A stretch of 32,668 nucleotides of DNA from a virus: positions 1-32,668 of IMG/VR virus record IMGVR_UViG_3300003323_000166. One strand, written 5' to 3'. The notes beneath the pieces are model-generated. The model was not told where the DNA came from. It did not search any database and worked only from the letters and a program-made list of their open reading frames with translations. Position numbers and translations under genes: made by a program. Shown here one piece after another: positions 7,607 to 32,651 of the stretch (its first letter is position 1; each line of letters starts with the position of its first letter).

Positions 7607-7813
7607 ATGGCGACACGGAAGCAAAAAGAGGCTGATACCGTGGCCCATTGCGGCAATTGCCGTTACTTCAAAGAAGAAAAAGAAGGTTACGAGACATGCC
7701 GACGCAATCCGCCCCAAGTCATGATTGACGAAGAAGGCAATACGTCGAGCGTGTTCCCGCCCATCATTGCGGCTGAGTGGTGCGGCTGCTGGGCTCCCAA
7801 GCTGAACGCCTGA
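7607..7813 (+). CDS. Small Cys-rich zinc-ribbon-like protein
   Basis: A 68-residue protein with CGNCRYF near the start, a single Cys at ETCRRNPP, and CGCWAPK at the C-terminus. This Cys pattern suggests a bound zinc or an iron-sulphur-free rubredoxin-like fold. I chose the ATG at 7607 (GGGG six bases upstream); the frame opens at 7595. It is the first gene past the leader terminator and overlaps the phosphoesterase gene by one base. Confidence 0.7.
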   Translation: MATRKQKEADTVAHCGNCRYFKEEKEGYETCRRNPPQVMIDEEGNTSSVFPPIIAAEWCGCWAPKLNA

Positions 7814-8973
7814 TGGCCTCGTTACGCGACTTTGCGACGCCCAGAGAGCTTGAATATCTGGATGCCGTTGAGAAGCACGGCAGCGAGCGCAAGGCAGCCG
7901 AAGCGCTGGGCCTGTCGCGCGGCACGATCAGCACAGCGGTAAAGCGGATCAAGGAAAAGGCGGCGCGGCGCGGGTACAGCCCGGAGCATAGTTGGACGCG
8001 GCCAGTGCCTGAAGGCCACCGGGCGCGTGGTGTTTCGACGCTGTTTGACCTGGATGGCAACCCCATCATGCAGTGGGTCAAGAGCGAGATAGACCATAAG
8101 CGCCAGGCCGAGATGATGCGGGCGGCCGCTGATGCGATGGCAGAAGAACTGCCTCGCGTTAAGCCGGTAGCTTTCTCTGGCAAAACGGATGCTTCGCTCT
8201 GCAACCTGATTGTTTTTACCGACTACCACCTCGGCATGCTGGCTTGGCACAAGGAGGGTGGCGCGGACTGGGATCTCAAGATCGCCGAACAGATGTTGTT
8301 GGCGGCGTTCCTGCATTTGGTAGAGGCATCGCCCAAGGCCGGGAAATGCGTGTTAGCTCTGCAGGGTGATTTTCTGCATACGGATGGGCTAAAGCCACTG
8401 ACGCCAGAGCACCATCACGTACTTGACGCTGATGGGCGGTTCTCCAAGATCATTGAGGCCGCTATCCGCGTTGTGCGCCAGCTGATTGGGTATGCGCTTG
8501 AGAAACATCGGGAAGTGCATCTTTTGATCTGCGAGGGGAACCACGATGAAACGGGCTCCCTGTGGATGCGGAAGATGTTTGCCGCTCTGTACGAAAAAGA
8601 GCCGCGCCTGACGGTCAACGCATCTGAACTGCCGTACTACGTGGTTCAGCACGGTGAGGTGATGCTGGCCTTCCACCACGGCCACAAGGTCAAGAACGAG
8701 CAGCTTCCTGGCTTGTTCGCGGCGCAGTTTGCCTGGATGTGGGGCCAGACGACGAAACGCTATTGCCACACTGGGCACCGGCACCACGTGGATGAAAAGG
8801 AATATGCCGGGATGACGGTGACGCAGCATCCGACACTGGCCGCACGAGACGCATACGCAGCTCGCGGCGGCTGGATTTCGGAGCGCGCAGCACAGTCAAT
8901 CACGTATCACGAGAAATACGGGCAAGTCGCAAGAAACATCGTGACGCCCGAGATGTTGAGCCCAATCCGGTAG
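7813..8973 (+). CDS. HTH-metallophosphoesterase fusion protein
   Basis: A 386-residue protein. Residues about 8-50 form a helix-turn-helix (YLDAVEKHGSERKAAEALGL, SRGTISTAVKRIKEKA). Residues about 128-330 carry the complete calcineurin-like phosphoesterase signature: D137-x-H139, G185-D186 with H189, G242-N-H-D245, H289-G-H291 and G321-H-x-H324. The metal-binding set is intact, so a phosphodiesterase or nuclease activity (SbcD/Mre11-like) is likely. The ATG at 7813 overlaps the previous stop in TGATG; the frame opens earlier at 7777. The position before terminase suggests a role in DNA processing for packaging, but that is inference. Confidence 0.85.
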   Translation: MASLRDFATPRELEYLDAVEKHGSERKAAEALGLSRGTISTAVKRIKEKAARRGYSPEHSWTRPVPEGHRARGVSTLFDLDGNPIMQWVKSEIDHKRQAEMMRAAADAMAEELPRVKPVAFSGKTDASLCNLIVFTDYHLGMLAWHKEGGADWDLKIAEQMLLAAFLHLVEASPKAGKCVLALQGDFLHTDGLKPLTPEHHHVLDADGRFSKIIEAAIRVVRQLIGYALEKHREVHLLICEGNHDETGSLWMRKMFAALYEKEPRLTVNASELPYYVVQHGEVMLAFHHGHKVKNEQLPGLFAAQFAWMWGQTTKRYCHTGHRHHVDEKEYAGMTVTQHPTLAARDAYAARGGWISERAAQSITYHEKYGQVARNIVTPEMLSPIR

Positions 8974-8999
8974 CCAGATCCGCCAGCATTGCCTTTACG

Positions 9000-9312
9000 G
9001 CGCATACAACGCGCTGGGCCTGGGTCTGGCTCCCAGATTGGGACCTTCACACATGCGTCATGGGCTTCCTCCCGTCTACAGCAACAGCCGGGAACTGGGG
9101 CTTGGTCTTGTTGCTGGGGCCACCGCACTATGCGCGGGGCATGACGCAGTTGTGAGGGCCGTCCATTGCCGTATCGGCAGGTGGTAAAAAGACTCGGCCG
9201 AGTATGGCCCTCAACCATTAAGCATCACTTAAAAGTTCCAAGCGTCTCCTCCAAGGTTGGCTATCCAACCACTCGCGCCCCACTGGCATGTGTCAGTGGG
9301 GCGCTTCTTTTT
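9000..9312 (+). ncRNA. Structured non-coding segment, candidate phage RNA ending at a terminator
   Basis: The 349 bases between the phosphoesterase stop (8973) and the next ATG (9323) hold no convincing gene. They have strong fold potential. A 9-bp stem TGCGTCATG (9054-9062) / CATGACGCA (9140-9148) encloses an 8-bp stem CAGCAACA (9079-9086) / TGTTGCTG (9109-9116). Next comes a compact three-way junction. Its outer stem is TGAGGGCCGT (9153-9162) / ATGGCCCTCA (9204-9213), with one G-U pair. Inside are a hairpin at 9163-9184 (core TGCCG-TAT-CGGCA) and a hairpin at 9192-9203. ACCA follows the outer stem directly. A further hairpin GGTTGG-CTAT-CCAACC (9255-9270) and a strong terminator complete the unit. 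It is not a tRNA. An alternative is a DNA-level signal for packaging. Confidence 0.5.
9275..9312 (+). terminator. Strong intrinsic terminator before the terminase region
   Basis: GCGCCCCACTG (9275-9285), loop GCATGTGT, CAGTGGGGCGC (9294-9304), then TTCTTTTT. An 11-bp perfect stem makes it the strongest terminator in the window. It either ends a small RNA or tests late antitermination. Confidence 0.9.
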
Positions 9313-9322
9313 GGGGCTAACC

Positions 9323-9592
9323 ATGAAGTTGACCACTAAGGCGCGCAAGGCGCTGCCGAAGACTGAATTTGCTGGCCCGGGCCGTTCTTACCCGGTTCCC
9401 GATGCAAGCCATGCTGCCAACGCGAAAGCTCGAGCAAGTCAGGCCGTGAACGAAGGCCGCATGTCGAAAGGCCAGGAGGCAAAGATCGACGCCAAGGCCA
9501 ACAAGGTACTGAACCGCGAGCACGGCAAAGCTGGCCCGCGTGAGGTGCAACACCCGCAATCGCACGCTGAGTTTGAAAAGCTCGGCAAGTAA
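9323..9592 (+). CDS. Small basic conserved phage protein
   Basis: An 89-residue Lys/Ala-rich protein. The segment LPKTEFAGPGRSYPVPDASH followed by ANAKARASQAVNEGRMSKGQ is a pattern seen in many phage proteins near the packaging genes, without known function. The ATG at 9323 has GGGG six bases upstream, just past the terminator. The same frame is open to 9257 but that part would lie inside the terminator stem. Confidence 0.7.
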   Translation: MKLTTKARKALPKTEFAGPGRSYPVPDASHAANAKARASQAVNEGRMSKGQEAKIDAKANKVLNREHGKAGPREVQHPQSHAEFEKLGK

Positions 9593-9639
9593 TCAACGCT
9601 TAACTTGGAGCGCTACCCGTAAGGGCGCGGCTGAGAGTT

Positions 9640-9831
9640 ATGAAACTGTATTTCGTACCCAAAGAACACGAAGAAGTAATGCGGGATCTGATAGTCCGCA
9701 TGCATCAAGGCGGTAGCCCCAAGCCTGGGCAAATGATCTTGGTAGAGCCGCATGAGATGAAAGCCCTGTTGGCATCTCACATGATCGAGACGCCAGATCA
9801 GGCCGATATTCCTGAAAGCCATCTGAACTAG
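9640..9831 (+). CDS. Small protein of unknown function
   Basis: A 63-residue protein (MKLYFVPKEHEEVMRDLIVR at the start, ending DIPESHLN) with GAGAG upstream of the ATG. It is predicted soluble, with one helix and a short strand. It lies between the basic protein and terminase small subunit. No family is recognised. Confidence 0.6.
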   Translation: MKLYFVPKEHEEVMRDLIVRMHQGGSPKPGQMILVEPHEMKALLASHMIETPDQADIPESHLN

Positions 9832-9841
9832 AGGTCTATAG

Positions 9842-10162
9842 ATGGCAAAAGGAATAAAGACGGGCGGTCGCCAAGCGGGGACGCCGAACAAGGTAACGCG
9901 CGAGTTTCGGGAGACGGTGCGCAACCTGCTCGAACTGAACGCGGACAACATGACCTTGTGGCTTCAGCAAGTGGCTGAGGGACACAACGATGTCCGCCCA
10001 GCTCCGGATAAGGCGCTTGACCTGTTAGCAAAGCTAGCCGAGTTTGCGGCGCCCAAGCTGTCTCGCACTGAGTTGACTGGCGAGGACGGCGGCCCGGTCA
10101 AGACCGTCACTGAATTCGTTTTGGCTCCGTTCGTAGCCGAGGATGACCAAGCTACGAATTGA
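9842..10162 (+). CDS. Terminase small subunit-like protein
   Basis: A 106-residue protein starting MAKGIKTGGRQAGTPNKVTR. The GGRxxGTPNK-type start followed by a helix (EFRETVRNLLELNADNM) and by PDKALDLLAKLAEFAAPKLS is typical of short terminase small subunits and their relatives in betaproteobacterial phages. Its job would be to recognise the packaging site and load the large subunit. It overlaps the large subunit gene by 20 bases, which supports the call. Confidence 0.7.
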   Translation: MAKGIKTGGRQAGTPNKVTREFRETVRNLLELNADNMTLWLQQVAEGHNDVRPAPDKALDLLAKLAEFAAPKLSRTELTGEDGGPVKTVTEFVLAPFVAEDDQATN

Positions 10163-11459
10163 GATGCCCGCAAAGCTGATCCCTGTATTTCAGGGGCCAG
10201 CAGACGTTAGGGGGGCATACGGCGGACGGGGAAGTGCTAAGACGCGCTCATTCGCCACGATGCTTGCGGTTGTGGGCATGCGGTACGGTCAGGCTGGCGT
10301 GTCTGGCCTGTTGGTCTGCGGTCGGCAGTACATGAATTCGCTGGCTGATTCATCGCTGGATGAGTGCAAGCGGGCCATTGAGAGTGAGCCTGTTCTAGCC
10401 AAGTACTACGAGGTCGGAGAAACCTACATCCGGTCGCGCGATGGGCGCATTGCATTTGCGTTCGTCGGGCTAGATAAGTCGGTTCAATCCATCAAGTCCA
10501 AGGCGCGCATTCTTGTGTTGTGGGTGGATGAAGCGGAACCGGTAACGGATGAGGCTTGGAAGATCGTCATCCCGACCCTTCGAGAAGAAGGCGGCGACGG
10601 CAAAGACGCCTGGAACGCAGAACTGTGGGTGACGTGGAACCCGGCGCGCAAGACGGCTCCGGTTGAGCGCTTCCGCAGCAGGAACGATCCGCTCATCAAG
10701 GTTGTTCAACTGAACTGGCGCGACAACCTGCGCTTTCCGGCCAAGCTAGAGCGTGAGCGCCAACGGGATCTGAAAGAGCGTCCCGAGCAGTACAACCACA
10801 TTTGGGAAGGCGATTACGTCACGGCGCTGGCTGGTGCGTACTACGCCAAGCATCTGCAGGAAGCGAAGGAACAAGGCCGCATCGGCTTCTTCCCTGCTGA
10901 CCCGATGATGACTATCCGCTTGATGTGCGACATCGGCGGGACGGGCGCAAAGGCGGATGCATTCGCCATCTGGGCCATGCAATTCATCGGTCGCGAGATC
11001 CGCGTAGTGAACTACTACGAGGCTGTTGGGCAGCCGCTAGACGCGCACTTGGCGTGGTGTAGGTCGCAAGGCTACGAGCCCAGCAAGGCGCAATTCTGGC
11101 TGCCTCACGACGGCTCTACGCAGGACAAAGTATTCGACGTTTCGTATGAATCAGCACTCAAGAAAGCGGACTATTCAGTCACGGTCGTCCCAAATCAAGG
11201 GCGAGGCGCGGCAATGGCTCGAGTCGAGCGTGCGCGTGTTCTGTTTCCTCAGGTCCGTTTCCATGAGCAAACAACTGAAGCTGGCCGTGCTGCACTGGGG
11301 TGGTATCACGAGAAGCGCGATCAAGAGCGTGGCATCGGCCTTGGTCCTGAACACGATTGGTCAAGCCACGGCGCGGATGCGTTCGGCCTGGGCTGCGTTG
11401 TGTGGCAAGAGCCGCAGGAAATGAAACCGCTGGTTTATCCAAAGATTGGGATTGTCTGA
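10143..11459 (+). CDS. terL: Terminase large subunit (PBSX/terminase_3 type)
   Basis: A 438-residue packaging motor. The ATPase has Walker A GGRGSAKT (27-34), Walker B LVLWVDEA (Asp129, Glu130) and the coupling motif VTWNP (163-167). The nuclease half has the expected acidic residues: Asp263 in CDIGGTGAKADAF with Asp272, Asp323 in PHDG, and Asp412 in HGADAFG. It cuts the concatemer and pumps DNA through the portal into the procapsid. The length and motif order match the family. The next gene starts on its stop codon. Confidence 0.95.
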   Translation: MTKLRIEMPAKLIPVFQGPADVRGAYGGRGSAKTRSFATMLAVVGMRYGQAGVSGLLVCGRQYMNSLADSSLDECKRAIESEPVLAKYYEVGETYIRSRDGRIAFAFVGLDKSVQSIKSKARILVLWVDEAEPVTDEAWKIVIPTLREEGGDGKDAWNAELWVTWNPARKTAPVERFRSRNDPLIKVVQLNWRDNLRFPAKLERERQRDLKERPEQYNHIWEGDYVTALAGAYYAKHLQEAKEQGRIGFFPADPMMTIRLMCDIGGTGAKADAFAIWAMQFIGREIRVVNYYEAVGQPLDAHLAWCRSQGYEPSKAQFWLPHDGSTQDKVFDVSYESALKKADYSVTVVPNQGRGAAMARVERARVLFPQVRFHEQTTEAGRAALGWYHEKRDQERGIGLGPEHDWSSHGADAFGLGCVVWQEPQEMKPLVYPKIGIV

Positions 11460-31621: not shown

Positions 31622-31654
31622 ACCACACCTCCCGCGTCTTAGCTAGGATCTTCT

Positions 31655-31849
31655 TTAAGGCCGATTTTGCGGCGTCTTGTAGATGGTCTTCCATCGTTTG
31701 CTTACCTTCTCTTGAATCTCGATGGGACCGTCTTCTTCATACTGCGCCGCGTAAAGCATGGCGGTTCCCTTTGCTGCGCGCTCTGGCCCTTCAGCGCTCG
31801 CCACTGCAACGCCGTTCTGCATGATTCGGAAATGCCTGTTCTGGCTCAT
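31655..31849 (-). CDS. Small leftward-operon protein of unknown function
   Basis: A 64-residue protein starting MSQNRHFRIMQNGVAVASAE, then GPERAAKGTAMLYAAQYEED and a strand-rich basic end (EKVSKRWKTIYKTPQNRP). A small alpha/beta fold is likely. No family is recognised. It lies 33 bases upstream of the Xis-like gene in the same operon. Confidence 0.65.
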   Translation of the reverse strand: MSQNRHFRIMQNGVAVASAEGPERAAKGTAMLYAAQYEEDGPIEIQEKVSKRWKTIYKTPQNRP

Positions 31850-31882
31850 CTCGTCGTCTCCAACATCCTCGTCAGTGCTGCT

Positions 31883-32212
31883 TCATAGAGCATGGGCCTT
31901 CACCTGTTCCAGCATCTTCGGCCCCATCAAAACGCCGATGCCCGCCGCGTGATACATGCGCGATTCCGTGCCGAAGAACTCGCGCATCCAATCGTTGATC
32001 TCGTCGCGGAAAGGTGACGGTAGGTTGTCGTACACCTTCGGCGTGAGTTGCATCTTGGGCACGTTGTCGAGCATCGGATCTACGAAGATCGGCTGCCCAA
32101 GAATATTTGGCTCCCTCGGAGCCTTGGCCTCAATTTCCGCCATGACGGCCTTGATGTCGCGCAGCATGTCGCTATAGCTGATCGAGTTGCCTGTTCCTGT
32201 CGTAGCGTTCAT
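31883..32212 (-). CDS. Leftward-operon protein of unknown function
   Basis: A 109-residue protein. The ATG at 32212 lies 1 base after the upstream stop (TGAGATG), with GGGAGGGG just before, so it is preferred over the ATG at 32227. It contains SYSDMLRDIKAVMAEIEAKA, VPKMQLTPKVYDNLPSPFRD and MREFFGTESRMYHAAGIGVL. The start looks helical and the end is hydrophobic. No family is recognised. Confidence 0.65.
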   Translation of the reverse strand: MNATTGTGNSISYSDMLRDIKAVMAEIEAKAPREPNILGQPIFVDPMLDNVPKMQLTPKVYDNLPSPFRDEINDWMREFFGTESRMYHAAGIGVLMGPKMLEQVKAHAL

Positions 32213-32213
32213 C

Positions 32214-32651
32214 TCACCCCTCCCCATGCGCGGGCTTGGCGCGGTCTTGAAGCACTGTCAGGCGTGGTACGTTCGGGTAGATGCCCATGATCTTCTCCAC
32301 CTCGCAGCACAGGTTCTGCACCACGGCGATGGGGTCGATGTCGCCTTTGAGCGAATAGACATCGCCATCACACAGACAAGCGTTCTCGCCTTTTTCGGCC
32401 TCACGCGAGAGTGCGAGATTCGGCTGTACCGGCTCCATGGCCCCGCTGTAGCACTCATGGCTTTGGATGAAGGCGCGCAGGAAGCAATCGCGCAAATCCC
32501 TGAACGTGATGCCCCTGATCTCGGTTGCGCCGCGCTCACCGGTACACGTTTGCGGCTGCCCGGAATACGGCCGGTCTCGCCTCATGTTGTGATCGTGCGT
32601 GCCGCACACTTCGTCAATAAAGCCGACGAGCTGATTGATAGGGTCACCCAT
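32214..32651 (-). CDS. Leftward-operon protein of unknown function
   Basis: A 145-residue protein starting MGDPINQLVGFIDEVCGTHD. It contains RGITFRDLRDCFLRAFIQSH, then several Cys residues (ACLCDGDV, NLCCEVEKIMG), so zinc binding is possible. GGAGAGAGCG lies before the ATG at 32651, the same ribosome-site context as the gene at 433. The frame is open to a TTG at 32666 at the window edge. No family is recognised. Confidence 0.65.
   Translation of the reverse strand: MGDPINQLVGFIDEVCGTHDHNMRRDRPYSGQPQTCTGERGATEIRGITFRDLRDCFLRAFIQSHECYSGAMEPVQPNLALSREAEKGENACLCDGDVYSLKGDIDPIAVVQNLCCEVEKIMGIYPNVPRLTVLQDRAKPAHGEG

Follow-up and report, generated by a model that had tools for sequence, protein, structure and literature searches.

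Phage RNA cassettes with constant ends, a switchable helix and exchangeable interiors

A non-coding segment upstream of the late genes of a 32.7-kb virus record (the window, i.e. the whole stretch of DNA that we analysed) is one member of a previously unclassified phage RNA family, characterized by constant ends, a switchable helix and exchangeable interiors. Its units comprise two domains, A-body 1-B and B-body 2-C. Each domain has a closing helix that covaries, and strand B is contested between these helices. Units pass between phages, with breakpoints of exchange at A and B. Below we describe the segment in the window, the class to which it belongs, and the reading that we favour for it among several alternatives.

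Results

A structured, non-coding segment in the window

Approximately 350 non-coding bases separate the phrog_704 gene of the window from its late genes, namely the gene for a phrog_16160 protein (start codon at 9324) and that for the terminase (10143-11459). The features of the segment are collected in Table 1. Folding of the complete leader (8974-9316) gave a structure more stable than 100 out of 100 dinucleotide shuffles (z -3.99), and the 3' part folded alone (9243-9316) reached a z of -6.7. The exonuclease/phosphoesterase-family protein encoded upstream shows a LysR-type HTH match (PF00126) at its N-terminus.

Table 1. Features of the segment and of its upstream neighbour (window coordinates).
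Feature	Position	Strand	Remarks
phrog_704 exonuclease/phosphoesterase family gene, N-terminal HTH	7777..8973	+	upstream neighbour, context only
Leader with long hairpin, conserved, upstream of the element	8974..9040	+	kept also in the element-less L005
Short hairpin TCCCA-GAT-TGGGA abutting strand A	9031..9043	+	read from the window sequence
Strand A, CCTTCACA	9044..9051	+	partner of strand B in helix P1a; frame conserved, 99 body families
CA, 5' half of the conserved CA/G(T/C) mismatch	9052..9053	+	frame conservation
Body 1, cloverleaf-like cassette interior	9054..9148	+	P1b (9054-9062/9140-9148), small hairpin (9062-9073) and two arms (9079-9116 and 9119-9139)
GT, 3' half of the conserved mismatch	9149..9150	+	frame conservation
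Strand B, TGTGAGGG	9151..9158	+	common to helices A:B and B:C
Body 2, two hairpins (9163-9184, 9192-9203), closed by B:C	9159..9205	+	sequence comparison; sequence and length not the same in PBR31 and L004
Strand C, GGCCCTCA	9206..9213	+	alternative partner of B
ACCA directly 3' of C, resembling a tRNA 3' end	9214..9217	+	read from the sequence
GTCTCCTCC, anti-SD-like	9244..9252	+	conserved in L001, L004 and L005; similar in L006 and L007
Hairpin GGTTGG/CCAACC	9255..9270	+	sequence and fold
Intrinsic terminator	9275..9312	+	stem sequence not the same in the window and PBR31

An earlier note on this DNA had proposed a series of stems in the segment, and every one of them is present (9054-9062/9140-9148, 9079-9086/9109-9116, 9153-9162/9204-9213, 9163-9184 and 9192-9203), as are the ACCA (9214-9217), the hairpin at 9255-9270 and the terminator near 9275-9312. 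What it had missed is helix A:B, in which 9044-9051 pairs with 9151-9158 and lengthens the 9-bp stem across the CA/GT mismatch. Domain 1 contains the 9-bp stem as its inner part, and domain 2 (helix B:C) corresponds to the 10-bp stem together with ACCA. The newly found helix is incompatible with most of that 10-bp stem (9153-9162/9204-9213). The note likewise did not recognise that the segment is a cassette. The 3' part had also been described as mimicking a tRNA acceptor end without being a tRNA, which agrees with the ACCA that follows the B:C helix and with the lack of any tRNA call (ARAGORN) or Rfam family, including RF00005, in the segment.

We rejected a protein-coding segment: the only annotated ORF (PBR31_00016, 63 aa, in Xanthomonas phage PBR31) is frame-shifted in a related contig (L004) by a 2-nt deletion that falls inside a hairpin loop, bearing out the earlier claim that there is no convincing ORF here. 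A candidate HDV-like ribozyme was dropped, by inspection only, for its P1 strand has no upstream partner.

The element is conserved and accessory

The core of the element (9044-9158) is kept in three other phages. The segment is 77% identical in PBR31, 94% identical over 8970-9158 in L004 (IMG/VR contig 2619619306), and 100% identical over 9047-9158 (112 nt) in G001 (IMG/VR 3300003323_000295), a phage otherwise largely unrelated to the window. The only two further matches of G001 are short (31633-31888, 89%, and 32206-32243, 95%) and lie close to the end of the window, away from the RNA. Body identity with the window is 89% for PBR31 and 97% for L004, compared to about 74-75% for the flanking exonuclease region in both; conservation is thus higher in the RNA core than in the gene beside it. 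Besides two IMG/VR phages, exact 17-, 18- and 24-mers of the window unit retrieved only three hits to bacterial genomes, which are due to chance; a search with GTCTCCTCCAAGGTTGG gave only chance hits apart from the contig of L005, and a plasmid search gave no match.

The element is accessory, since it is missing in one close relative and its slot holds other cargo in two more genomes. In L005 the leader and terminator element remain but 9041-9240 is cleanly missing, L006 carries a tRNA-like unit without an anticodon arm, and L007 an unrelated reading frame with HNH appearance. At yet another locus (L029, 2810-2875), an int-alpA RNA (RF02996) lies directly 3' of the exonuclease gene, which is the slot of the element in the window; another match to RF02996 is found at L124 2569-2642.

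A class of units revealed by its two ends

By inspection, the same ends were seen around unrelated bodies in L006, L031, L034 and a tRNA-rich region of G001, and these common ends were confirmed with a regular expression on the collected loci. The class was found by searching for the two ends and not for the body: as the bodies have hardly any sequence in common, the class escapes family-based searches and is revealed by the two ends alone. A first model (R1) contained an unstructured tail, yet recovered the L031 unit inside a nine-tRNA array.

Scanning IMG/VR with TTCACRCATG...CAGTYGTGARRG returned 65 stretches, and a GC variant of the pattern returned 78, with chance matches estimated at about 5 and about 20, respectively, for an assumed collection size. 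Among distinct exact matches, a body stem with 4 bp or more was present in 50 of 50 for the first pattern and in 59 of 70 for the GC variant, and in 55 pattern-only units the stem extended inward by 6.8 pairs on average, compared to 0.65 in shuffled bodies. A reversed control pattern had 0 matches in 36 genomes, each of which holds the true pattern once or twice. With a relaxed search we kept 130 units, falling into 99 body families.

The shared frame reads A (YYTCACR)-CA-variable structured body-G(T/C)-B (YGTGARRG)-second body-C (CYYTCA, often followed by ACC), where body 1 begins with TG after the CA and ends with CA before the G(T/C). In the window, positions 9044-9158 hold the A:B helix, the CA/GY mismatch and a body stem starting with TG/CA, and a C complementary to B is found at 9206-9213, followed by ACCA. 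Immediately 5' of A, 46 of 93 families have a hairpin with 5 bp or more, compared with 9.9 in shuffles. Tandem arrangements of two or more units occur in L134, L164, L177, L203, L246, L253 and L261, and in three of these (L164, L203 and L246) the spacer measures 76-77 nt, about the size of a tRNA.

Two covarying helices compete for one strand

For helix A:B plus the body stem (62 sequences, 16 pairs), 96.0% of the cells were paired, versus 77.4% after shuffling and 33-49% when slid, and double-change cells numbered 166 versus 47.5 in shuffles; these 62 units had been preselected for at least 6 P1a pairs and at least 4 body pairs, the unbiased measures being the remaining inner pairs and the pattern-only sets. 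The second helix changes in concert too. When B ends in GG, C is CCCTCA in 29 cases and CTCTCA in 3; when B ends in GA, the counts are 0 and 19 (Fisher p 3e-11). If C is chosen by its AAC tail alone and B is ignored, the variable R is paired in 31 of 31, which 0 of 1000 reshufflings match, and the next-but-one outer position of the B:C helix covaries as well. The earlier note had suggested a search for homologues with compensatory base changes, and these exist for both helices.

Of 93 families, 40 yielded a strand C forming 7 bp or more, where shuffles predict 5.5; the other families may lack domain 2 or hold a diverged version of it. RCC lies directly 3' of C in 18 of the 40 (1.8 expected), the strict RCCA only in 3 of them. 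Two mutually complementary loops of domain 2, GGCTGA and GATCAGC, co-occur in 17 families (expected 5, p 7e-11) and could pair with each other.

Helices A:B and B:C cannot both form fully, since A and C are rivals for the same strand, B. For the window (9044-9220), the two states have predicted energies of -75.2 and -75.0 kcal/mol, the optimum being a hybrid of -75.5, and across 35 families the median gap between states is 1.6 kcal/mol; gaps this small are suggestive only, as they are partly expected from the use of strand B by both helices.

Exchange of units and their relation to tRNAs

Identical or near-identical bodies are found in flanks that are no more alike than random pairs (window/L085, L219/L135, L110/L140, L142/L187 and L236/L252). 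The reverse case also occurs, i.e. a flank shared on one side with unrelated bodies next to it (L164/L177, L200/L207, L217/L155 and L244/L110). Units therefore behave as exchangeable cassettes.

Bodies range from an intact tRNA-Ile, called by ARAGORN within the frame of L031, through tRNAs without an anticodon arm (L006, L035 and L209), to bodies in which no tRNA is visible. The L006 unit scores 38.8 bits with RF00005 despite its missing arm. T-arms or D-arms are present in L035/L209, L159, L180, L192 and others, with T-arms in 7 of the 99 body families versus 0.04 in shuffles, and in L185 it is the B-to-C domain itself that is called as a tRNA-Phe. All ARAGORN tRNAs at 3 kb or less from a unit lie on the strand of the unit (33/33). 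The corresponding figures for naive ORFs are 42/86 upstream and 43/88 downstream, in GC-rich DNA where such calls are probably often spurious. The frame in other phages adjoins integrase, terminase, portal, DUF2303/SSB and tRNA genes. In Burkholderia phage Mica the unit sits just 3' of the integrase and just 5' of a tRNA pseudogene; a matching region is found in BcepIL02, BcepMigl, DC1 and CSP3, with the BcepIL02 site located between gp11 (DUF2303) and the SSB gene.

Discussion

A candidate processed RNA and its alternatives

The structure and the covariation of the units are well supported. The explanation that we lean towards, at slightly less than even confidence, is a bistable, tRNA-like phage RNA whose two overlapping domains have strand B in common and which would be processed by RNase P in the manner of C4 RNA. 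In the nascent transcript, domain 1 would fold first. Once C emerges, it would pair at the unoccupied 3' end of B and displace A via branch migration, which would halt at the CA/GY mismatch and leave the inner stem intact. Domain 2 would now present a 7-bp acceptor-like stem plus RCC(A), the pattern read by RNase P in pre-tRNAs and in the C4 precursor, and the enzyme would cut 5' of B. The product of such a cleavage would be a small, stable RNA whose variable body may work in trans, either through antisense pairing or by acting as a decoy that tRNA-binding factors of the host or of defence systems recognise. Processing and stability would depend on the constant frame as a handle, and the body would be an effector swapped among phages. 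Both the RNase P step and the role of the RNA are inferred here. In the window, the element would represent an accessory module placed between the exonuclease gene and the late genes, and ending at its own terminator. More tentatively still, the units could form a widespread class of phage RNA cassettes that use the two-state frame as a processing handle and in which the exchanged bodies are evolving trans-acting RNAs, possibly directed against host defences that target tRNAs.

The tRNA-related bodies invite a different history, in which units are degenerate phage tRNA genes with a complementary leader and trailer, constant ends that recombine, and interiors that decay under little selection beyond pairing. 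The intact tRNA-Ile, the three tRNAs without an anticodon arm, the excess of T-arms and the co-orientation of nearby tRNAs all speak for it. Yet pure decay would lose the CA/GY mismatch, the covarying helices and the long stable body stems found in nearly all families; the second helix, B:C, shows matching changes, and in the window family conservation of the body reaches 89-100%, with flanking genes at about 75%. We consider this history unlikely. Improbable, in our opinion, is a recombination site acting at the DNA level, where the A/B inverted repeat would work as folded DNA and a recombinase would shuffle cassettes as in integrons. Exchange breakpoints that coincide with A and B, constant ends around variable interiors, and the integrase genes beside some units would fit such a site, but G-U is common at P1a pair 2, as expected for RNA and not for DNA, and both the strand bias relative to tRNAs and the B:C covariation argue in the same direction. 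Besides, there are usually 1-2 units per genome, and homologous recombination within the constant ends would suffice for the exchange.

Other alternatives concern the location of the element in the window. The earlier note saw here a structured phage RNA outside known families, a view that stands, and offered as possible roles a late leader responding to antitermination or a DNA packaging signal, which both lose ground. The RNA-type covariation and the shared strand of all 33 nearby tRNAs make a packaging signal less likely. A late-leader element that acts in cis, by put-like or Q-type antitermination, and governs read-through at the 9275-9312 terminator would agree with the position upstream of this terminator and the late genes in both the window and PBR31, and with a Q-like gene annotated upstream in the latter. 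Nevertheless, L005 has no such element, and L006 and L007 have a replacement, though the terminator element stays; this, and the varied neighbours of the frame elsewhere (integrase, terminase, portal, DUF2303/SSB and tRNA genes), make antitermination an improbable role in our view. Finally, GTCTCCTCC, the hairpin and the terminator (9243-9312) could constitute a separate anti-Shine-Dalgarno small RNA, similar to the Betaproteobacteria toxic small RNA (RF02278). The GUCUCCU start and the terminator layout are as in this family (14.8 bits, 9243-9311), and the 3' element persists without the window cassette in L005 to L007. The score is, however, far under the gathering value of 50, and at an equally lax threshold RF02278 matches 13 of 14 control genomes, so we give this idea a low probability.

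Relation to known systems

Our analogy for the units is the C4 antisense RNA (RF01695) of phages P1 and P7, a phage RNA of tRNA size processed by RNase P. According to a passage of PMC5320573 that cites Hartmann 1995, C4 has several stem-loops, is cut by RNase P from a longer transcript, and finds its target through variable loops. Units have constant ends and hypervariable bodies, whereas C4 has one conserved fold; its model gave nothing over the 45-bit cut-off in 12 genomes, and no match at all in the window. With tRNAs (RF00005) the units share those bodies that are tRNAs or lack only the anticodon arm, as well as a B:C helix that amounts to a 7-bp acceptor-like stem plus RCC, and, as in phage tRNA arrays, they are often close to tRNAs on the same strand. 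Unlike tRNAs, their ends are sealed with 7-8 bp outside the conserved mismatch, and most bodies bear no tRNA signature. Proteo-phage-1 (RF03044) and int-alpA (RF02996) are also structured RNAs of proteobacterial phages that occupy or adjoin the same slots (L159, L029 and L124), but their consensus differs and units score under the cut-offs of both models: for Proteo-phage-1 the 42 bits were reached at no unit tested, only at a separate locus of G009. The 3' element of the window resembles RF02278 in having GUCUCCU followed by a terminator hairpin, but the match is below the gathering score and the cassette is not covered by it.

Integron cassettes (attC) likewise have constant paired ends and variable interiors and are exchanged as units. 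The consensus and the cargo of attC differ from those of our units, in which the interior is itself a structured RNA. In accord with the earlier note, which knew no fitting family, Rfam searches covering part of the 99 families matched only the tRNA bodies inside the frame and not the frame, and we found no description of such cassettes in the open-licence literature. Within this scope, we rate the class as new in kind.

With this class, structured phage RNA gains no fewer than 99 body families, with Burkholderia and Xanthomonas as named hosts. The contest of two helices for a single strand is conserved in it, and one exchangeable format unites tRNAs, their degenerate forms and RNAs in which no tRNA ancestry is visible. 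Two questions become testable: do phages deliver variable RNA effectors on a standard RNA chassis, and what accounts for the structured non-tRNA segments within phage tRNA arrays?

We also noticed two further conserved sequences. An intergenic hairpin (GCGCTACCCGTAAGGGCGC, window 9593-9640) lies 3' of the phrog_16160 gene and is near-identical at L005 4614-4661; its CCCGTAAGGG core looks like the hairpins that precede strand A. Between the exonuclease gene and the late genes of the relatives L028, L031, L035 and L036 there is a conserved CGCCTGCTCAGGCGTCACGGGGCGCACGCAGCGCAACGCTGCACGCCGGG.AACCGGC with hairpin potential.
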